From a virus, in the IMG/VR virus record IMGVR_UViG_3300027917_000161, positions 1 to 25,924 of that record: DNA of 25,924 bases. One strand, written 5' to 3'. The notes beneath the pieces were generated by a model. It ran no database searches. It saw only the letters and a list, made by a program, of their open reading frames with translations, and was not told where the DNA came from. The position numbers were made by a program, and so were the translations under genes. Shown here in pieces: positions 888-25,924 of the stretch. How positions within the stretch are numbered: position 1 is the first letter of the stretch; each line of letters begins with the position of its first letter.

Positions 888-903
888 TGTAACATTTGTT
901 ACA
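888..903. promoter_or_regulatory. NtcA-like palindromic operator
   Basis: TGTAACATTTGTTACA is a perfect 16-base inverted repeat. It contains GTA-N8-TAC (889-902), the consensus of the cyanobacterial nitrogen regulator NtcA, which binds when 2-oxoglutarate is high. It ends 7 bases before the -35 box at 911. Its centre is about 50 bases before the predicted start site. Classical NtcA activation sites lie near -41.5, so the position is roughly one helical turn too far upstream and a full -35 box is present. Activation, or repression by some other dimeric regulator, are both possible. The palindrome itself is certain; the NtcA assignment is inference. Confidence 0.6.
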
Positions 904-910
904 AAAATAC

Positions 911-939
911 TTGACTATATATGATATTAGGGGTATAAT
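911..939 (+). promoter_or_regulatory. sigma70-type promoter of the riboswitch unit
   Basis: TTGACT (911-916) and a perfect TATAAT (934-939) are separated by 17 bases. The expected start is near 946, only a couple of bases before the 5' strand of the riboswitch P1 helix at 948, so promoter and aptamer positions support each other. Host RNA polymerase could read it early in infection. Confidence 0.85.
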
Positions 940-945
940 ACTCTT

Positions 946-1038
946 GTCGTTCATCTGCTATTTGCGAATAGCAAATAGAGACGGAAGTACCGAAAGGGAA
1001 GGAACGCAAATTTACTCATTCAGTAAAGGAGCAACCTT
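946..1038 (+). ncRNA. glutamine-II-type riboswitch (Downstream-peptide motif) leader
   Basis: The leader matches my recollection of the Downstream-peptide / glutamine-II aptamer of marine Synechococcus, Prochlorococcus and their phages. CGTTC (948-952) pairs with GAACG (1002-1006). A long hairpin CTATTTGC/GCAAATAG (958-965/971-978, loop GAATA) is extended by TCT/AGA around a bulged G. The conserved CGGAAGTA (982-989) follows, then a short CC-GAAA-GG hairpin (990-997) and GGAAGGAACGC (997-1007). Downstream, TTTACT/AGTAAA (1011-1016/1022-1027) forms a 6-bp hairpin whose 3' arm runs into the Shine-Dalgarno AAGGAG (1026-1031). That suggests control of translation of the 33-aa peptide starting at 1039. 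The known class binds L-glutamine. The ligand in this copy is inferred by family. Confidence 0.85.
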
Positions 1039-1140
1039 ATGAAAATCACTTTCGTACAATACCTAAAAGAAAAGGATAAAAAGCGGAAAAAACTTCATAA
1101 CGCCGAAATTAATATGGCTAAAAAGCCACAAGTAGCGTGA
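1039..1140 (+). CDS. 33-aa basic peptide under riboswitch control
   Basis: The gene begins at ATG 1039, 7 bases after a strong AAGGAG, and ends at TGA 1138-1140. The product (MKITFVQYLKEKDKKRKK at its start) has 9 Lys, 1 Arg and only 3 acidic residues, net about +7. The first half looks like a single amphipathic or basic helix. Short peptide genes directly after this RNA motif are what gave the Downstream-peptide motif its name. In cyanobacteria, glutamine riboswitches control gifB-type glutamine-synthetase inactivating factors, which are also small basic proteins, so a role in modulating host glutamine synthetase is a reasonable hypothesis. I see no convincing sequence similarity to IF7/IF17. 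Its stop overlaps the GTG start of the next gene. Confidence 0.8.
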   Translation: MKITFVQYLKEKDKKRKKLHNAEINMAKKPQVA

Positions 1141-1295
1141 TTAGTGAAGACTATTATCATGAAGAAAATATTGATGACAGAGAACCTGCTTGTTATCTTT
1201 TAACATATAGAGGTCAAAATTATTGGCACTGTTATGGCATTCATTTAATTGAGTGGTTTGAGCAAATTTATGATAAAAACTTTGAGGGGGGTTGA
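1137..1295 (+). CDS. 52-aa acidic protein, GTG start, translationally coupled
   Basis: An open frame begins at GTG 1137, overlapping the preceding stop as GTGA, and ends at TGA 1293-1295. No ATG is available in this frame. The composition looks coding: Tyr, Trp and His rich with short hydrophobic strands (ACYLLTYRGQNYWHCYGIHL, IEWFEQIYDKNFEGG). It has about 11 acidic and 3 basic residues, net about -8, opposite to the 33-aa peptide just upstream. I do not recognise the family. The core strand-turn-strand plus helix pattern could be a small folded domain. Its last codons form the 5' arm of the intrinsic terminator, which marks the end of the transcription unit. It is probably expressed only by coupling from the riboswitch-controlled gene. 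Confidence 0.7.
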   Translation: MISEDYYHEENIDDREPACYLLTYRGQNYWHCYGIHLIEWFEQIYDKNFEGG

Positions 1296-1311
1296 CTCCC
1301 TCTCTTTTTTT
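1284..1311 (+). terminator. intrinsic terminator of the riboswitch unit
   Basis: GAGGGGG (1284-1290) pairs with CTCCCTC (1296-1302), one G-T pair included, across the 5-base loop GTTGA. TCTTTTTTT follows. The hairpin starts inside the last codons of the 52-aa gene. Confidence 0.9.
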
Positions 1312-1320
1312 GTGTATGAT
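1292..1320 (+). promoter_or_regulatory. sigma70-type promoter superimposed on the terminator
   Basis: TTGACT (1292-1297) lies in the terminator loop and 3' arm, and TATGAT (1315-1320) lies just after the T-tract, with exactly 17 bases between. The predicted start near 1327 leaves a leader of about 15 bases before the ATG at 1342. It would restart transcription for the two small genes and thyX. Confidence 0.65.
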
Positions 1321-19772: not shown

Positions 19773-22700
19773 ATGTATATTGAATTTCCATCAAACCCTA
19801 CAGTAGGTCTTACTACTTCTATTGGGGAGAAGACCTGGATTTATACTGGAAAGGGGTGGAAACTTCAATTTGTTCCAGCAACTCAAGGTACTCAAGGTAC
19901 TCAAGGTCCACTGAGTAATTTTCAGGGAACTCAAGGAAGACAGGGTTTACAGGGAATTCAAGGAAACCAAGGTCTCCAAGGAAATCAAGGTCTCCAAGGA
20001 AATCAAGGTCTCCAAGGAAATCAAGGTCTCCAAGGAAATCAAGGTGTTCAGGGCAATCAAGGTCTCCAAGGTGTTCAAGGACCTTTAAGCAATAATCAAG
20101 GTACTCAAGGTACTCAAGGTCTTCAAGGAAACCAAGGTGTTCAGGGTATCCAGGGCCCCCTAAGTAATTTTCAGGGAACTCAAGGATTACAAGGAAATCA
20201 AGGTCTTCAAGGACTTCAGGGCCTTCAAGGTCTTCAAGGAACTCAAGGTCATCAAGGTTCTCAGGGAACTCAGGGAACACAAGGTACTCAAGGAACTCAA
20301 GGAAATCAAGGTCTTCAGGGAAATCAAAGTTCTCAGGGAACACAAGGTACTCAAGGAACTCAAGGTCTTCAAGGCACTCAAGGCACTCAAGGTTCCCAAG
20401 GTTCTCAAGGTTCTCAAGGACTTCAAGGCACTCAAGGTTTACAAGGTACTCAAGGTACTCAAGGCACTCAAGGTTTACAAGGCACTCAAGGTACTCAAGG
20501 CACTCAAGGCACTCAAGGTACTCAAGGCACTCAAGGTTTACAAGGTACTCAAGGTACTCAAGGTACTCAAGGTTTACAAGGTACTCAAGGTTTACAAGGT
20601 ACTCAAGGTTTACAAGGTTTACAAGGAATTCAAGGTTTACAAGGTACTCAGGGTTTACAAGGTACTCAAGGTTTACAGGGTTCACAAGGAACTCAAGGTT
20701 CACAAGGTACTCAAGGTTTACAAGGTTTACAAGGAACTCAGGGTCTTCAAGGTCTTCAGGGTCTTCAGGGACTTCAAGGATCTGCTAATTTTGGATTTCT
20801 CATAGAAGAAGATAATGAAAATGAAATAAGATATATTGGTTTTGTTACAGATACAGTTGGTACAGCTTCAACACTATATGTAAATTCCTCCGAGGAAAAT
20901 GCTTTTGTATTCAACCCAAATCTTGGTAATGTTGGAATTGGGACAACAAATCCAACAGAAAAATTACAAGTATCTGGAAATGTTGAAGTTTCTAATAATG
21001 TATCAGCATTAGCATATTTTGGCGATGGTGTCAATTTAACTGGAATTGTTACTCAAATTGTTCCAAGTATTGGAATTAATATTCAGGAAACTGAAGTTCC
21101 TGGGAAAGGTGTTGTAACAATTGATGCATACAAACCAGTTGGAAAAACGATATATGTATCCCAAACTGGAGATGATAATAATACTGGATTTACTGAAAAC
21201 TATCCCAAGAGGACTATAAAAGGTGCTGCTTCAGTAGCAGTATTTGGGGATACAATTAAAGTATTTCCGGGTGTTTATGTTGAAGATAATCCAATTATTT
21301 TAAAGAGAACAGTTTCTGTTGAAGGAACAGAACTTCGTAACTGCGTTGTTACACCTGGGAATGTCAATCAAGATATTTTCTATGTAAATAACGGATGCCA
21401 TATTACTGATATGAGTTTTATTGGACCTGATATGACAGATGGTGCGGCAGTAGTTGCTCTACAACCACTACTGGGTGTAAATGTGGACAGATATTTTGAT
21501 GCTGCTAGAATGATTCGTTATAATTTAGAGTACATTGCACAAGAGTCTGTTGGATTTTTAACAAGTGGTTATAGTGGATTTGCTGGAGGGCATAGGTATC
21601 AAGACGCTGGAAACTTATTAGAATTAAATGCTGACTTTATTGCTGCCGAAACAGTTGGTTATTTGACTAGTACTGATTATAAGAATCCACCATTTCAAAT
21701 TGTTGACTCTTTAGGAAATCTTACTGAACCATCAAATTGCACTGATGATATCAAAGATATAGTGTTACAATGGGCAAATGACTTAAAAGCAAATAGTAAT
21801 AAAAAGTCTATTGGTGCAGGTCTTTCTTATTATGATGATGGTGGTTCATTGCTACACATTGTAGGAAATGATCCGAATACATATAGCGTTCGACAAGCAA
21901 CAGTTGATGCTATTGAATATGCTGTTGGAATTGCAACATTTATTGTTGATAATATTGATTACGAAAATCAACCAGGAATAACTACATATACAAATTTGTC
22001 CCAAAACTTTAGTTATTCGCCAATTTTGGTTGGTGGAGGTTGTACTGATGTTAGGAATGATTTGGTGAATCTTTCTGGAATTGTAACTTCAATTATTGGT
22101 ATAGGTACTGAAGAGGCACCAGAAACTATATTTGGCGTTAGATTGGAAAGTGAAAAGTGTGCAAAAGATGTAAAAGATATTTGGAAGTCAATTATATATG
22201 ATTTAACACGAGGAGGAAATTCAAAATCAATCAGAGCAGGAAAATTCTATTACGACGATGATTTTGTATTGAATCCAGAAATTCTTAAGAACCCTCAAGA
22301 AGTTGAACAAACAATTGCAACCCTTGACTATTCATTTAACATTGTAAGGTCTGTAGTGAATAATGTAAGTTGGGGAAGTTGGCCAGTTGGATTTGGAGTA
22401 AATCCACTTAATGTTACTAATGCAACTTATGATAATGTAACAGGATTAACTACAATAACTGTAAATGCGAATCATAATTTGCAGGTTGAGAGTGTCGTTA
22501 AGATAGAAGGATTGGAATTCTCTTGTCCCGATAGTCCGCCAAATCTAATCTACCCAACTGGAAGTCTTGGATATATCTTTGAGGTGCATAAATTAATTGA
22601 TAATGATACATTTGAAGTAATTGTTGGACAATCAACTCTTCCACATACATATGTTTCTGGTGGAACTGTTCAGCAATATAAAAACTTCTATAATAAATTC

Positions 22701-24563
22701 ACCCAATTAAAGGACCTTTCAATTCAGATTGACCCAGATACTGGATTTAATAATGGAATTAATGGATGCGTAAATGTTGTTTCTGCATTGCGAAGTGCTG
22801 TTGGTGTTGTAACAACAGTAATTGGTCTTGGAGCAACATCAGGAATTACTACAACATATCCCGGAAATAATGGATATGGATTTACCTCTACTGTTGCTAT
22901 AAGTACTGCAACATATGACCATATAAATGGAACTGCCACAATAACTGTGCCAGGATTATCAACAAAAGTTGGTGATTTAATTGAGATGTATGATTTAGTA
23001 TTTGAATGTAGTTCTGGATTAACAACTTCAACTCAAAAATTCCCATCAGGAACCTATGGATATGAATTTTATATTACAAAAGTAGTAGATAACAATACTT
23101 TCCAAGTTAATGTTGGAACTTCAACTCTTCCACATACATACGTTTCTGGTGGATTTATTATTGATCGTTCTATTGGAATTACATCGGCACTGTACGATAA
23201 TATTTCTGGAATAGCTACAATCGGAGCACCTGGAGCATATCTAAAAGTTGGTGATTTTGTTGGTCTTAGAGATATGGAATTCTCTTGCCCAGATAGTCCA
23301 CCAAATTTAATTTATCCATCAGGAAATAATGGTTATATATTTAAAGTTGAAAGTGTTGTTTCTTTAGGAAATACATTCACAGTTAATGTTGGAACTTCAA
23401 CTATCCCACATACTTATGTTTCGGGTGGACTTGTAATACCACCATACTCAAAAGGAGTTGGTCCAATTACTCAAGGTCCATATGTTAGAAACTGTACTAA
23501 TTTTATTCCAAAGAGTATTGGAATGAAAGTTGATGGATTTGATGCTGAACCAGGAGACCAAGATGATATTGGTGTGACTGGAACGATGAGTGTTGACTCA
23601 TACACTCAATACAATCAGGGTGGTATTGGAGTATCAATTACCAATGGTGCATATTCTCAGTTAGTGTCTATCTTCACTATTTGTGACGACATTGCAATTT
23701 ACACTGCTTCTGGTGGACAGTGTGACTTAACAAACTCCAACTCATCTTTTGGAAATTATGGTTTATGGTCAGATGGTGTTGGTGACCAAACAACTGGTTC
23801 AATTTACCACTATACTGGAAAGGTAGTTCAAGATGCTGAGTTAGAGCAAGATACTGTTGTAATAGGTGGAATTGGAACCTATAGACCTTATGATGGGCAG
23901 GCACTATTTTTTGATAAACTTTATTATTTTGTTGATGGTATTAAAATTACAAATAGTGGAGGAGGATATACAGTTCCCCCAGTTGTTACTTTTAGTTTCC
24001 CAGAGGGTCAAAATGGAATTCGTGCAGAGGGTAGTGCAAACATTGATTCATTTGGAAGAGTTACATCTATTGATGTAATTAGTAGCGGTACGCAATATCT
24101 AAACCCACCCACAGTTACTATTAGTGGTAATGGCACTGGAGCGACAGCGGAACCAATTATGTATCCAATTTATTACTCTATTCAATCTGCAACTTTACCT
24201 GAACAGGGTGTATCAACTGTAGTTCTCCTATCCAATCTAAATAATAATGTTAGTGCTGGAACAACAGTTTACTTTACTAGAGTAAGTCTACAAATTACAT
24301 CTTCCCATTCATTTGAGTGGGTCGGTTCTGGGGTAAATATTAATAATGCAAAACCTGCTTTAGGTGGTGTCGTAATTCAAGAGAATGAAGTAGTTAAAAC
24401 TAATGGTGGAATTATTGTATATACAAGTACTGATCAGGGTGGAAATTTCAAAATTGGAGATGATGTAACAATTAATCAGGTGACTGGAACAATTACTGGT
24501 AGAGCATTTAGTCAAAGTCTGTTAAATACAGTAACACCACTTATTATTGCTTTAGGTAAGTAA
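19773..24563 (+). CDS. long virion fibre with Gly-X-Gln collagen-like shaft
   Basis: A 1596-aa protein. Residues 1-35 (MYIEFPSNPTVGLTTSIGEKTWIYTGKGWK) form an N-terminal anchor. Residues 37-336 are about 100 Gly-X-Gln triplets. Next is NVGIGTTNPTEKLQVSGNV, a common fibre strand motif. A probable right-handed beta-helix follows (about 455-560, GKTIYVSQTGDDNNTG, GDTIKVFPGVYVED). Two similar helical modules come after (SNCTDDIKDIVLQWANDLK... and KCAKDVKDIWKSIIYDLT...). Then there are three tandem modules of about 85 aa ending in PHTYVSGG (about 883-966, 1044-1130, 1137-1222). The C-terminal part has GGGYTVPPVVTF/GRVTSIDVISSG repeats and a small end domain. A host-contact tail fibre or other long appendage is likely. 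The receptor cannot be inferred. Confidence 0.85.
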   Translation: MYIEFPSNPTVGLTTSIGEKTWIYTGKGWKLQFVPATQGTQGTQGPLSNFQGTQGRQGLQGIQGNQGLQGNQGLQGNQGLQGNQGLQGNQGVQGNQGLQGVQGPLSNNQGTQGTQGLQGNQGVQGIQGPLSNFQGTQGLQGNQGLQGLQGLQGLQGTQGHQGSQGTQGTQGTQGTQGNQGLQGNQSSQGTQGTQGTQGLQGTQGTQGSQGSQGSQGLQGTQGLQGTQGTQGTQGLQGTQGTQGTQGTQGTQGTQGLQGTQGTQGTQGLQGTQGLQGTQGLQGLQGIQGLQGTQGLQGTQGLQGSQGTQGSQGTQGLQGLQGTQGLQGLQGLQGLQGSANFGFLIEEDNENEIRYIGFVTDTVGTASTLYVNSSEENAFVFNPNLGNVGIGTTNPTEKLQVSGNVEVSNNVSALAYFGDGVNLTGIVTQIVPSIGINIQETEVPGKGVVTIDAYKPVGKTIYVSQTGDDNNTGFTENYPKRTIKGAASVAVFGDTIKVFPGVYVEDNPIILKRTVSVEGTELRNCVVTPGNVNQDIFYVNNGCHITDMSFIGPDMTDGAAVVALQPLLGVNVDRYFDAARMIRYNLEYIAQESVGFLTSGYSGFAGGHRYQDAGNLLELNADFIAAETVGYLTSTDYKNPPFQIVDSLGNLTEPSNCTDDIKDIVLQWANDLKANSNKKSIGAGLSYYDDGGSLLHIVGNDPNTYSVRQATVDAIEYAVGIATFIVDNIDYENQPGITTYTNLSQNFSYSPILVGGGCTDVRNDLVNLSGIVTSIIGIGTEEAPETIFGVRLESEKCAKDVKDIWKSIIYDLTRGGNSKSIRAGKFYYDDDFVLNPEILKNPQEVEQTIATLDYSFNIVRSVVNNVSWGSWPVGFGVNPLNVTNATYDNVTGLTTITVNANHNLQVESVVKIEGLEFSCPDSPPNLIYPTGSLGYIFEVHKLIDNDTFEVIVGQSTLPHTYVSGGTVQQYKNFYNKFTQLKDLSIQIDPDTGFNNGINGCVNVVSALRSAVGVVTTVIGLGATSGITTTYPGNNGYGFTSTVAISTATYDHINGTATITVPGLSTKVGDLIEMYDLVFECSSGLTTSTQKFPSGTYGYEFYITKVVDNNTFQVNVGTSTLPHTYVSGGFIIDRSIGITSALYDNISGIATIGAPGAYLKVGDFVGLRDMEFSCPDSPPNLIYPSGNNGYIFKVESVVSLGNTFTVNVGTSTIPHTYVSGGLVIPPYSKGVGPITQGPYVRNCTNFIPKSIGMKVDGFDAEPGDQDDIGVTGTMSVDSYTQYNQGGIGVSITNGAYSQLVSIFTICDDIAIYTASGGQCDLTNSNSSFGNYGLWSDGVGDQTTGSIYHYTGKVVQDAELEQDTVVIGGIGTYRPYDGQALFFDKLYYFVDGIKITNSGGGYTVPPVVTFSFPEGQNGIRAEGSANIDSFGRVTSIDVISSGTQYLNPPTVTISGNGTGATAEPIMYPIYYSIQSATLPEQGVSTVVLLSNLNNNVSAGTTVYFTRVSLQITSSHSFEWVGSGVNINNAKPALGGVVIQENEVVKTNGGIIVYTSTDQGGNFKIGDDVTINQVTGTITGRAFSQSLLNTVTPLIIALGK
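19881..20780 (+). repeat. 9-bp Gly-X-Gln codon repeat array in the fibre
   Basis: About 100 copies of a GGN-NNN-CAR unit, mainly GGTACTCAA, GGAACTCAA, GGTCTTCAA and GGAAATCAA. X is mostly Thr, Leu or Asn, with rarer Val, Ile, Ser, His and Arg. Four consecutive 18-base units (19962-20033) are nearly identical. Three GPLSN(F/N)Q interruptions occur (19905, 20079, 20154), and one Gly-to-Ser break (QSSQ near 20326). Confidence 0.95.
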
Positions 24564-24922: not shown

Positions 24923-25924
24923 ATGGCAAAGTACAATTCCGGTAGAGTAAAAAGATTTGATCAGTTAGGAATTACATCGGATAGATATGAATTTCTTGGT
25001 TTGGAGCAGGCTGAACCAGATCTTGGCGACCCTTTAGTTGGTGTATCTTCCATTGGTACAAATCCATTCCCTCCAGGACAAACAGTTCCAGTCAATCACT
25101 ATGTTCTTATTGCGGCAGAAGGATATACTGGGGAGAGATTCTGGGTTCCATCTACTGATGTATATGCACAGGGTATTCAAGGTACTCAAGGTCTTCAAGG
25201 AACTCAAGGTACTCAAGGTACTCAGGGAAATCAAGGAACTCAAGGTGTTCAAGGACTCCAAGGAAATCAAGGACTTCAAGGTAATCAAGGTACTCAGGGA
25301 ACTCAAGGAACTCAAGGAACTCAAGGTTTACAAGGAAATCAGGGTAACCAAGGCAATCAAGGTACTCAAGGACTTCAGGGTCTTCAAGGAAATCAAGGAA
25401 ATCAAGGTGTTCAAGGACTCCAAGGCACTCAAGGTACTCAAGGAACCCAAGGACTACAAGGAAATCAAGGACTACAAGGAAATCAAGGACTCCAAGGACT
25501 ACAAGGAAATCAAGGACTACAAGGAAATCAAGGAACTCAAGGAACCCAAGGTCTTCAGGGTAACCAAGGACTCCAAGGTTTACAAGGAAACCAAGGACTC
25601 CAAGGAAATCAGGGTGTTCAAGGTCCATTAAGTAATTTTCAAGGCACTCAAGGAACTCAAGGAAATCAAGGACTCCAAGGAAACCAAGGAACTCAAGGTA
25701 CTCAAGGTACTCAAGGTACACAGGGATCTGGATTTCAAGGCACTCAAGGAACCCAAGGTCTTCAGGGTAATCAAGGTACTCAAGGCCTTCAAGGAAATCA
25801 AGGAAATCAAGGAACACAAGGTCTTCAAGGAAATCAAGGAAATCAGGGAACTCAAGGTACTCAAGGAACTCAAGGAACTCAAGGCCTTCAAGGAACCCAA
25901 GGTACTCAAGGAAACCAAGGAACT
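24923..25924 (+). CDS. second Gly-X-Gln collagen-like structural protein (partial)
   Basis: The frame opens at ATG 24923 and stays open to the last base, at least 334 codons. The N-terminal 82 residues are a unique anchor domain (MAKYNSGRVKRFDQLGITSD, then PFPPGQTVPVNHYVLIAAEG and TGERFWVPSTDVYAQ). It is unlike the anchor of the first fibre. From residue 84 on the protein is Gly-X-Gln triplets with X mainly Thr, Leu and Asn. Breaks are GPLSNFQ (25622-25642), shared with the other fibre, and a GSGFQ element near 25724. The C-terminal domain lies beyond the window. The other frames in this region are also open for long stretches, but those are by-products of the 9-base repeat. Confidence 0.85.
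   Translation, partial: MAKYNSGRVKRFDQLGITSDRYEFLGLEQAEPDLGDPLVGVSSIGTNPFPPGQTVPVNHYVLIAAEGYTGERFWVPSTDVYAQGIQGTQGLQGTQGTQGTQGNQGTQGVQGLQGNQGLQGNQGTQGTQGTQGTQGLQGNQGNQGNQGTQGLQGLQGNQGNQGVQGLQGTQGTQGTQGLQGNQGLQGNQGLQGLQGNQGLQGNQGTQGTQGLQGNQGLQGLQGNQGLQGNQGVQGPLSNFQGTQGTQGNQGLQGNQGTQGTQGTQGTQGSGFQGTQGTQGLQGNQGTQGLQGNQGNQGTQGLQGNQGNQGTQGTQGTQGTQGLQGTQGTQGNQGT
25172..25924 (+). repeat. second 9-bp Gly-X-Gln codon repeat array (continues past the window)
   Basis: About 83 triplets of the same GGN-NNN-CAR kind as the array at 19881-20780, with GGAAATCAA, GGACTACAA and GGTACTCAA common. It is still running at the window end. The similarity of both arrays at DNA level would allow recombination between the two genes. 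Confidence 0.93.

Follow-up and report, generated by a model that had tools for sequence, protein, structure and literature searches.

The window, that is, the whole stretch of 25,924 nucleotides analysed here, belongs, judging from its sequence, to a Kyanoviridae-like cyanophage genome. The best BLAST matches of its thyX-phoH region are Synechococcus phages, with S-SRM01 at the top, and these matches together with the thyX-phoH synteny bear out the original prediction, made from the letters of the DNA, that the element under study lies in a cyanophage leader. Cyanophages infect the main phototrophs of oceans and lakes, where nitrogen is often limiting.

The element belongs to a compact unit in which promoter, aptamer, Shine-Dalgarno sequence, ORF1, overlapping ORF2 and terminator follow each other in this order (Table 1), with position 1038 as the final base ahead of the ORF1 start codon. 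The promoter predicts a transcription start near 945-947, in agreement with the earlier proposal that the RNA begins right at the 5' end of the aptamer. At the other end of the unit, terminator and following promoter are fused (1284-1320): the hairpin loop or 3' arm serves as the -35 of the next promoter (TTGACx) and the T-run falls in the spacer, an arrangement also present in relatives L006, L007, L080, and L104. Beyond it, thyX and phoH are located 0.5-2.4 kb downstream. Directly upstream of the unit, an ORF at 481-807 is, by its sequence, speD-like (S-adenosylmethionine decarboxylase), and in S-RIM44 an annotated speD precedes the glutamine element. Putative fibre genes with long collagen-like repeats (GTQGLQG...) occupy 19773-24563 and 25038-25924.

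Table 1. Features of the leader and of the unit that follows it, in coordinates of the window.
Feature	Position	Strand	Basis
Palindromic NtcA-type box GTAACATTTGTTAC (GTA-N8-TAC)	889..902	+	sequence; consensus alone suggests NtcA
Sigma70-type promoter TTGACT-17-TATAAT	911..939	+	11/12 consensus bases
Glutamine-I aptamer	946..1010	+	RF01739, 42.4 bits vs 35
P1 5' strand CGTTC, paired with GAACG 1002-1006	948..952	+	sequence, cmscan
P2 variable hairpin, 11 pairs, bulged G 957, loop GAATA 966-970	954..981	+	sequence, folding, covariation
Conserved junction CGGAAGTA	982..989	+	sequence, cmscan
P3 hairpin CC-GAAA-GG, GAAA-capped	990..997	+	sequence; relatives
Conserved 3' segment GAAGGAACGC, GAAG junction plus P1 3' strand	998..1007	+	sequence, cmscan
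Platform hairpin TTTACT/AGTAAA, 3' arm overlaps Shine-Dalgarno	1011..1027	+	folding
Shine-Dalgarno AAGGAG, 7 nt 5' of ATG	1026..1031	+	sequence; conserved in relatives
CCTT between Shine-Dalgarno and ATG, pairs with 999-1002 (AAGG) or Shine-Dalgarno; candidate switching strand	1035..1038	+	folding, inference
ORF1, 33 aa, MKITFVQYLKEKDKKRKKLHNAEINMAKKPQVA, basic helix-type microprotein	1039..1140	+	sequence, homologs
ORF2, 52 aa, GTG start overlaps ORF1 stop, contains LTYRGQNYW	1137..1295	+	sequence, homologs
Intrinsic terminator, 7-pair G+C-rich hairpin plus T-run	1284..1312	+	sequence/folding
Second promoter-like site TTGACT-17-TATGAT, -35 inside terminator hairpin, upstream of thyX-phoH	1292..1320	+	consensus match

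Type and conservation of the aptamer

A cmscan search yielded RF01739, the type I (glnA) glutamine riboswitch, with an E value of 3e-6 for the whole window and a score above the family's gathering score (Table 1), and no other Rfam family exceeded its threshold in the window. The covariance model of the type II family, RF01704 (Downstream-peptide), gave no match at E<=10 on 880-1150. The original prediction had named both models for such a search and had assigned the element to glutamine-II; the glnA hit stands, the Downstream-peptide match does not exist, and the subclass is corrected to glutamine-I. This was the sole error in what had been observed, because P1 ends, variable hairpin, junction, GAAA-capped hairpin and 3' segment are all present at 948-1007. 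There they form the P1/P2/P3 three-way junction with CGGAAGUA and GAAGGAACGC that marks glutamine-I membership, and the element has the expected 5'-leader position, following a promoter and preceding a Shine-Dalgarno sequence and ORF1, with a predicted regulatory role. The leader is thus, as its sequence reads, a type I glutamine-riboswitch aptamer that presumably binds glutamine. That it might instead be a type II riboswitch is suggested by the short downstream ORF, which is the hallmark association of that class, by core sequences that both classes share (PMC2864571), and by composite marine relatives in which the two models are not cleanly separated, some of these scoring slightly higher with RF01704 than with RF01739; against the scores obtained for the window itself, however, we consider this very improbable. 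The RF01704 elements of marine picocyanobacteria resemble the window in preceding short ORFs, some with DUF4278, and differ from it in that the window lacks a match to their model.

The spaced aptamer core is present at a single place in the window and in none of 100 shuffles, and all conserved aptamer positions are intact. All eight scanned relatives of the ORF1 type carry RF01739 above its cut-off. Among distinct canonical cyanophage aptamers, the outer pairs of P2 are kept at 94.6%, compared with 69.4% when partners are shuffled; 0 of 2000 shuffles reached the observed 94.6%, the shuffling leaving in the relatedness among sequences. Across 17 distinct P3 hairpins from relatives, neither pair is ever lost, and G-C and C-G replace each other. 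In IMG/VR, the exact core pattern was found in at least 120 contigs, as was each of two leader-specific patterns (at least 120 each). That the aptamer is a host-derived relic that has decayed and lost its function is difficult to reconcile with the intact positions, with helices that covary in relatives and with this recurrence in viral contigs, and we give it next to no credence. In nearly all of the first IMG/VR set, a ribosome site and a tiny ORF follow about 20-35 nt past the aptamer; many of these contigs carry different upstream sequences and ORF families and probably do not come from cyanophages.

Phage-borne glutamine riboswitches are not new, as the original prediction had noted; they already appear in PMC9004378, PMC9964418, and PMC9602691. 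PMC9004378 places them in phages Melnitz, Mosig, and AG-345-P14, and PMC9964418 discusses glnA RNA for S-CREM1. Like the window, all four encode a glutamine aptamer, although the Melnitz element is described at a tmRNA gene, unlike that of the window. Compared with glnA RNA in general (RF01739), the window is alike in secondary structure, conserved core and 5'-leader position, whereas it is located in a phage, ahead of two unnamed microproteins and with an NtcA-type box upstream.

The microprotein genes

Both ORFs are under purifying selection, with a pooled pN/pS of 0.229 for ORF1 (41 distinct 33-aa homologs) and a pN/pS of 0.24 for ORF2 (9 distinct homologs). ORF1 matched a wider family of phage helix microproteins with an hhalign probability of 94%. 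Several members of this family match PHROG 545, and in other phages its members lie beside YRG (DUF4278-type) modules or are fused to them; the marine fused helix-YRG form, T4-GC_937, has relatives in 372 phage records (E<=0.01). ORF2 gave no Pfam hit at E<=1 and no PHROG hit. Its assignment to DUF4278 (PF14105) was rejected, since hhalign aligned only the 9 columns of the YRG motif and a Pfam hit was lacking. The first ORF after the aptamer encodes a YRG protein in 163 of 209 cyanophage relatives.

In cyanobacterial genomes, the glutamine-I aptamer precedes DUF4278 (YRG) and IF7-like proteins. Directly after the riboswitch, a free IF7-like small protein without a DUF4278 part is encoded at the cyanobacterial loci L164, L170, L188, L163, and L232. 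The two phage products could accordingly be read as glutamine-synthetase inactivating factors, a split IF17 in which ORF2 corresponds to the DUF4278 part and ORF1 to the IF7-like part. This is consistent with the host riboswitches that precede DUF4278-IF7 fusions as well as free IF7-like proteins, and with the adjacency or fusion of helix and YRG modules in phages; we nevertheless regard it as rather unlikely, given that the likeness of ORF2 to DUF4278 is limited to the YRG motif. Homology of ORF1 and the phage helix family to IF7 was rejected at an hhalign probability below 1%, and a PDB search with an approximate IF7 query sequence returned no useful match. Because glutamine riboswitches associate with DUF4278 proteins in hosts, host nitrogen metabolism appears the likeliest target of the microproteins.

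Another possibility is that the aptamer is real and that it mainly controls the nucleotide genes thyX and phoH further downstream and not the microproteins. These genes are close here, and in S-SRM01, Bellamy, and S-SM2 they are neighbours of the element as well. A strong terminator and the second promoter-like site intervene in the window, however, and in DSL-LC03 and several marine isolates nrdB or talC adjoins the element in place of thyX-phoH while the microprotein genes stay with it, so that this explanation seems unlikely.

The NtcA-type box and the proposed switch

The pattern GTANC-N4-GNTAC occurs a single time in the window. In classical NtcA-activated promoters, the site is located 22-24 nt 5' of the -10 element. 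The distance from the end of the box to TATAAT (934) is 31 nt, which departs from the classical activating geometry, and NtcA may therefore act in either direction. After clustering at 70% identity, the box was present in 76 of 87 non-redundant cyanophage relatives, compared with 2 of 488 stretches taken from the same loci as controls. Before clustering, of the 154 distinct cyanophage elements whose upstream sequence was long enough, 145 had a box within 90 nt upstream, and in 142 it lay on the 5' side of the aptamer at one of the two preferred distances, 38/39 or 57-62 nt. In an initial count of 119 loci, which came almost entirely from the first IMG/VR scan, enrichment was slight because most of these loci fall outside the cyanophage class; it is in the cyanophage set that the enrichment emerges. 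GTA-N8-TAC is the NtcA consensus for marine cyanobacteria and their phages, and cyanophages are known to carry 1-16 NtcA boxes per genome (PMC3037559).

This enrichment at fixed positions in relatives suggests that host NtcA, which responds to 2-oxoglutarate, and the aptamer, which responds to glutamine, probably both control the unit. We found no description in the literature of an NtcA box coupled with a glutamine riboswitch. The closest host counterpart is the leader of Synechocystis gifB (IF17), where NtcA represses and a type I glutamine riboswitch activates (PMC7760959, PMC6316151). The two leaders share the pair of sensors and a small-protein product, whereas the product in the window is not IF17 and the geometry of the NtcA site differs. 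The simplest guess is that the phage unit copies the gifB logic of NtcA repression and glutamine activation. The proposal that expression is timed by the nitrogen state of the host is plausible and gains strength from the finding of the NtcA-type box. If true, a leader joining a candidate 2-oxoglutarate input to a glutamine aptamer would let viral genes be read out by host nitrogen status.

Between the aptamer and ORF1, no terminator-like site was found on the plus strand, and control is therefore most likely exerted at translation. Predicted folds include one in which AAGG 999-1002 pairs with CCUU 1035-1038, excluding the aptamer, and another in which P1 is formed and the Shine-Dalgarno sequence is paired locally. 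Since the latter state combines P1 with a paired Shine-Dalgarno sequence and since the minimum-energy fold varies with the chosen ends, folding leaves the direction of switching unfixed. A pyrimidine tract at the CCTT position is conserved in most relatives; the TTTAC/GTAAA pairing of the platform hairpin is kept in part of them and lost in others. Both types of glutamine aptamer bind L-glutamine and raise expression in cyanobacteria (reviewed in PMC6316151), and by analogy with these tested family members glutamine would turn the unit on.

Together, these findings suggest, with a probability of roughly 80%, that the leader is a cyanophage glutamine-I riboswitch controlling translation of a unit of two microprotein genes. 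We infer that glutamine is the bound ligand, that CCTT is the switching strand and that NtcA is the protein binding the box. In the proposed mechanism, host RNA polymerase would start near 946, influenced by a site for host NtcA (889-902). Plentiful glutamine would bind the three-way junction (948-1007) and hold GAAGGAACG (998-1006) in the aptamer, freeing the Shine-Dalgarno region so that ORF1 and the overlapping ORF2 could be translated. When glutamine is scarce, AAGG 999-1002 would pair with CCUU 1035-1038 around the hairpin at 1011-1027 and hinder ribosome binding. The transcript of the unit would stop at the terminator at 1284-1312.

Probable composite, gene-bearing aptamers in relatives

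The window itself holds an ordinary single aptamer; a composite form was found outside it, in relatives. In this form, the aptamer is split into a 5' and a 3' half that lie apart, as seen in the freshwater phages S-SRM01 and DSL-LC03, in numerous IMG/VR contigs and in marine isolates. It is likely that the element of the window is the simple counterpart of a composite glutamine riboswitch, carried by many cyanophages of fresh water and the sea, whose aptamer has protein genes inside it. In this architecture, a 5' half (P1, P2a, ACGSAAGUA) and a 3' half (GAAGGAACG) would be joined by a long-range P3 that spans 44-222 nt in annotated isolates. The insert between them has the form GGAACG-loop-CGTTCA-P2b-ACGCAAA, a circularly permuted aptamer-like junction.

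Among the collected loci, 89 distinct composite elements were parsed, whose P3 strands fall into 17 combinations. The 15 combinations of standard length have on average 6.0 of 8 positions paired, compared with 5.44 after shuffling (1 of 5000 shuffles reaches 6.0), with exchanges from A-U to C-G, U-A to G-C, and G-C to A-U. RNAfold returned the composite dumbbell for the relative L374 and not for Bellamy. At its own cut-offs, Rfam detected none of the composite elements of the six isolates scanned; other composite elements score 20-34 bits. The interpretation of the composites as two independent tandem aptamers was rejected, as neither half is complete. Tandem glutamine riboswitches are known (157 doublets and 4 triplets; PMC9481103) and likewise combine two or more glutamine-aptamer-like units in one leader, whereas the composite halves are incomplete, have one long-range P3 in common and may hold ORFs in P2.

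In the proposed architecture, the P2b loop, the P2a loop or both contain a conserved microprotein ORF, with the AUG in or beside the P2 stem; reading of the inner ORF usually stops at the P3/GAAG junction. An ORF-sized insert with ATG at its start is held by 113 distinct P2 segments, and the stems closing ORF-bearing P2 segments have a mean of 5.49 contiguous pairs, compared with 3.77 in shuffles (0 of 2000). For the inner ORF of P2b, pN/pS is 0.21 and 77 of 85 frames are open; P2a segments are interrupted in 19 of 28 cases, and some P2a may be mis-parsed. The composite core was detected around T4-GC_430, which has relatives in 312 phage records, in 12 of the 13 marine isolates sampled through T4-GC_937; in the remaining one, ACG-2014f, it was not found with the pattern used. 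Syn9, Syn19, and S-CAM1 carry an extra ORF (gp196/T4-GC_936) in P2a, and in Syn9 both gp196 and gp197 lie inside one aptamer.

If true, ribosomes on the inner genes would have to open the sensor, directly coupling translation to glutamine sensing, and the composite form, of which laboratory phage Syn9 offers an example, would be unusual among riboswitch architectures. The hypothetical genes T4-GC_430 and T4-GC_937, each with more than 300 phage records, would then be tied to nitrogen sensing. In the open-licence literature that we searched, no account of ORFs lying within a riboswitch aptamer was found, which is weak evidence of absence, and the accessible parts of the accounts of phage glutamine aptamers (PMC9004378, PMC9964418) make no mention of a composite gene-bearing form. 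While phage glutamine riboswitches are already known, this form appears to be new. Both the composite form and the combination of NtcA box and aptamer can be tested in existing laboratory phage-host pairs.

Composite aptamers with one or two ORFs in P2 loops and a long-range P3 are found at L489 (Syn9) 320-760, L485 (S-SM2) 907-1140, L003 2610-2850, and L126-L132. In L127 and L129, an in-frame stop interrupts the inner ORF, with the aptamer's 3' half left intact. In Marine virus AG-345-L05 (L004, 3137-3545), a single composite aptamer has ORFs in P2a as well as in P2b and is followed by a YRG protein. In L486 and L004, the aptamer GAAGG is changed to AAAGG and the inner ORF stop from TGA to TAA, so that the stop is kept.
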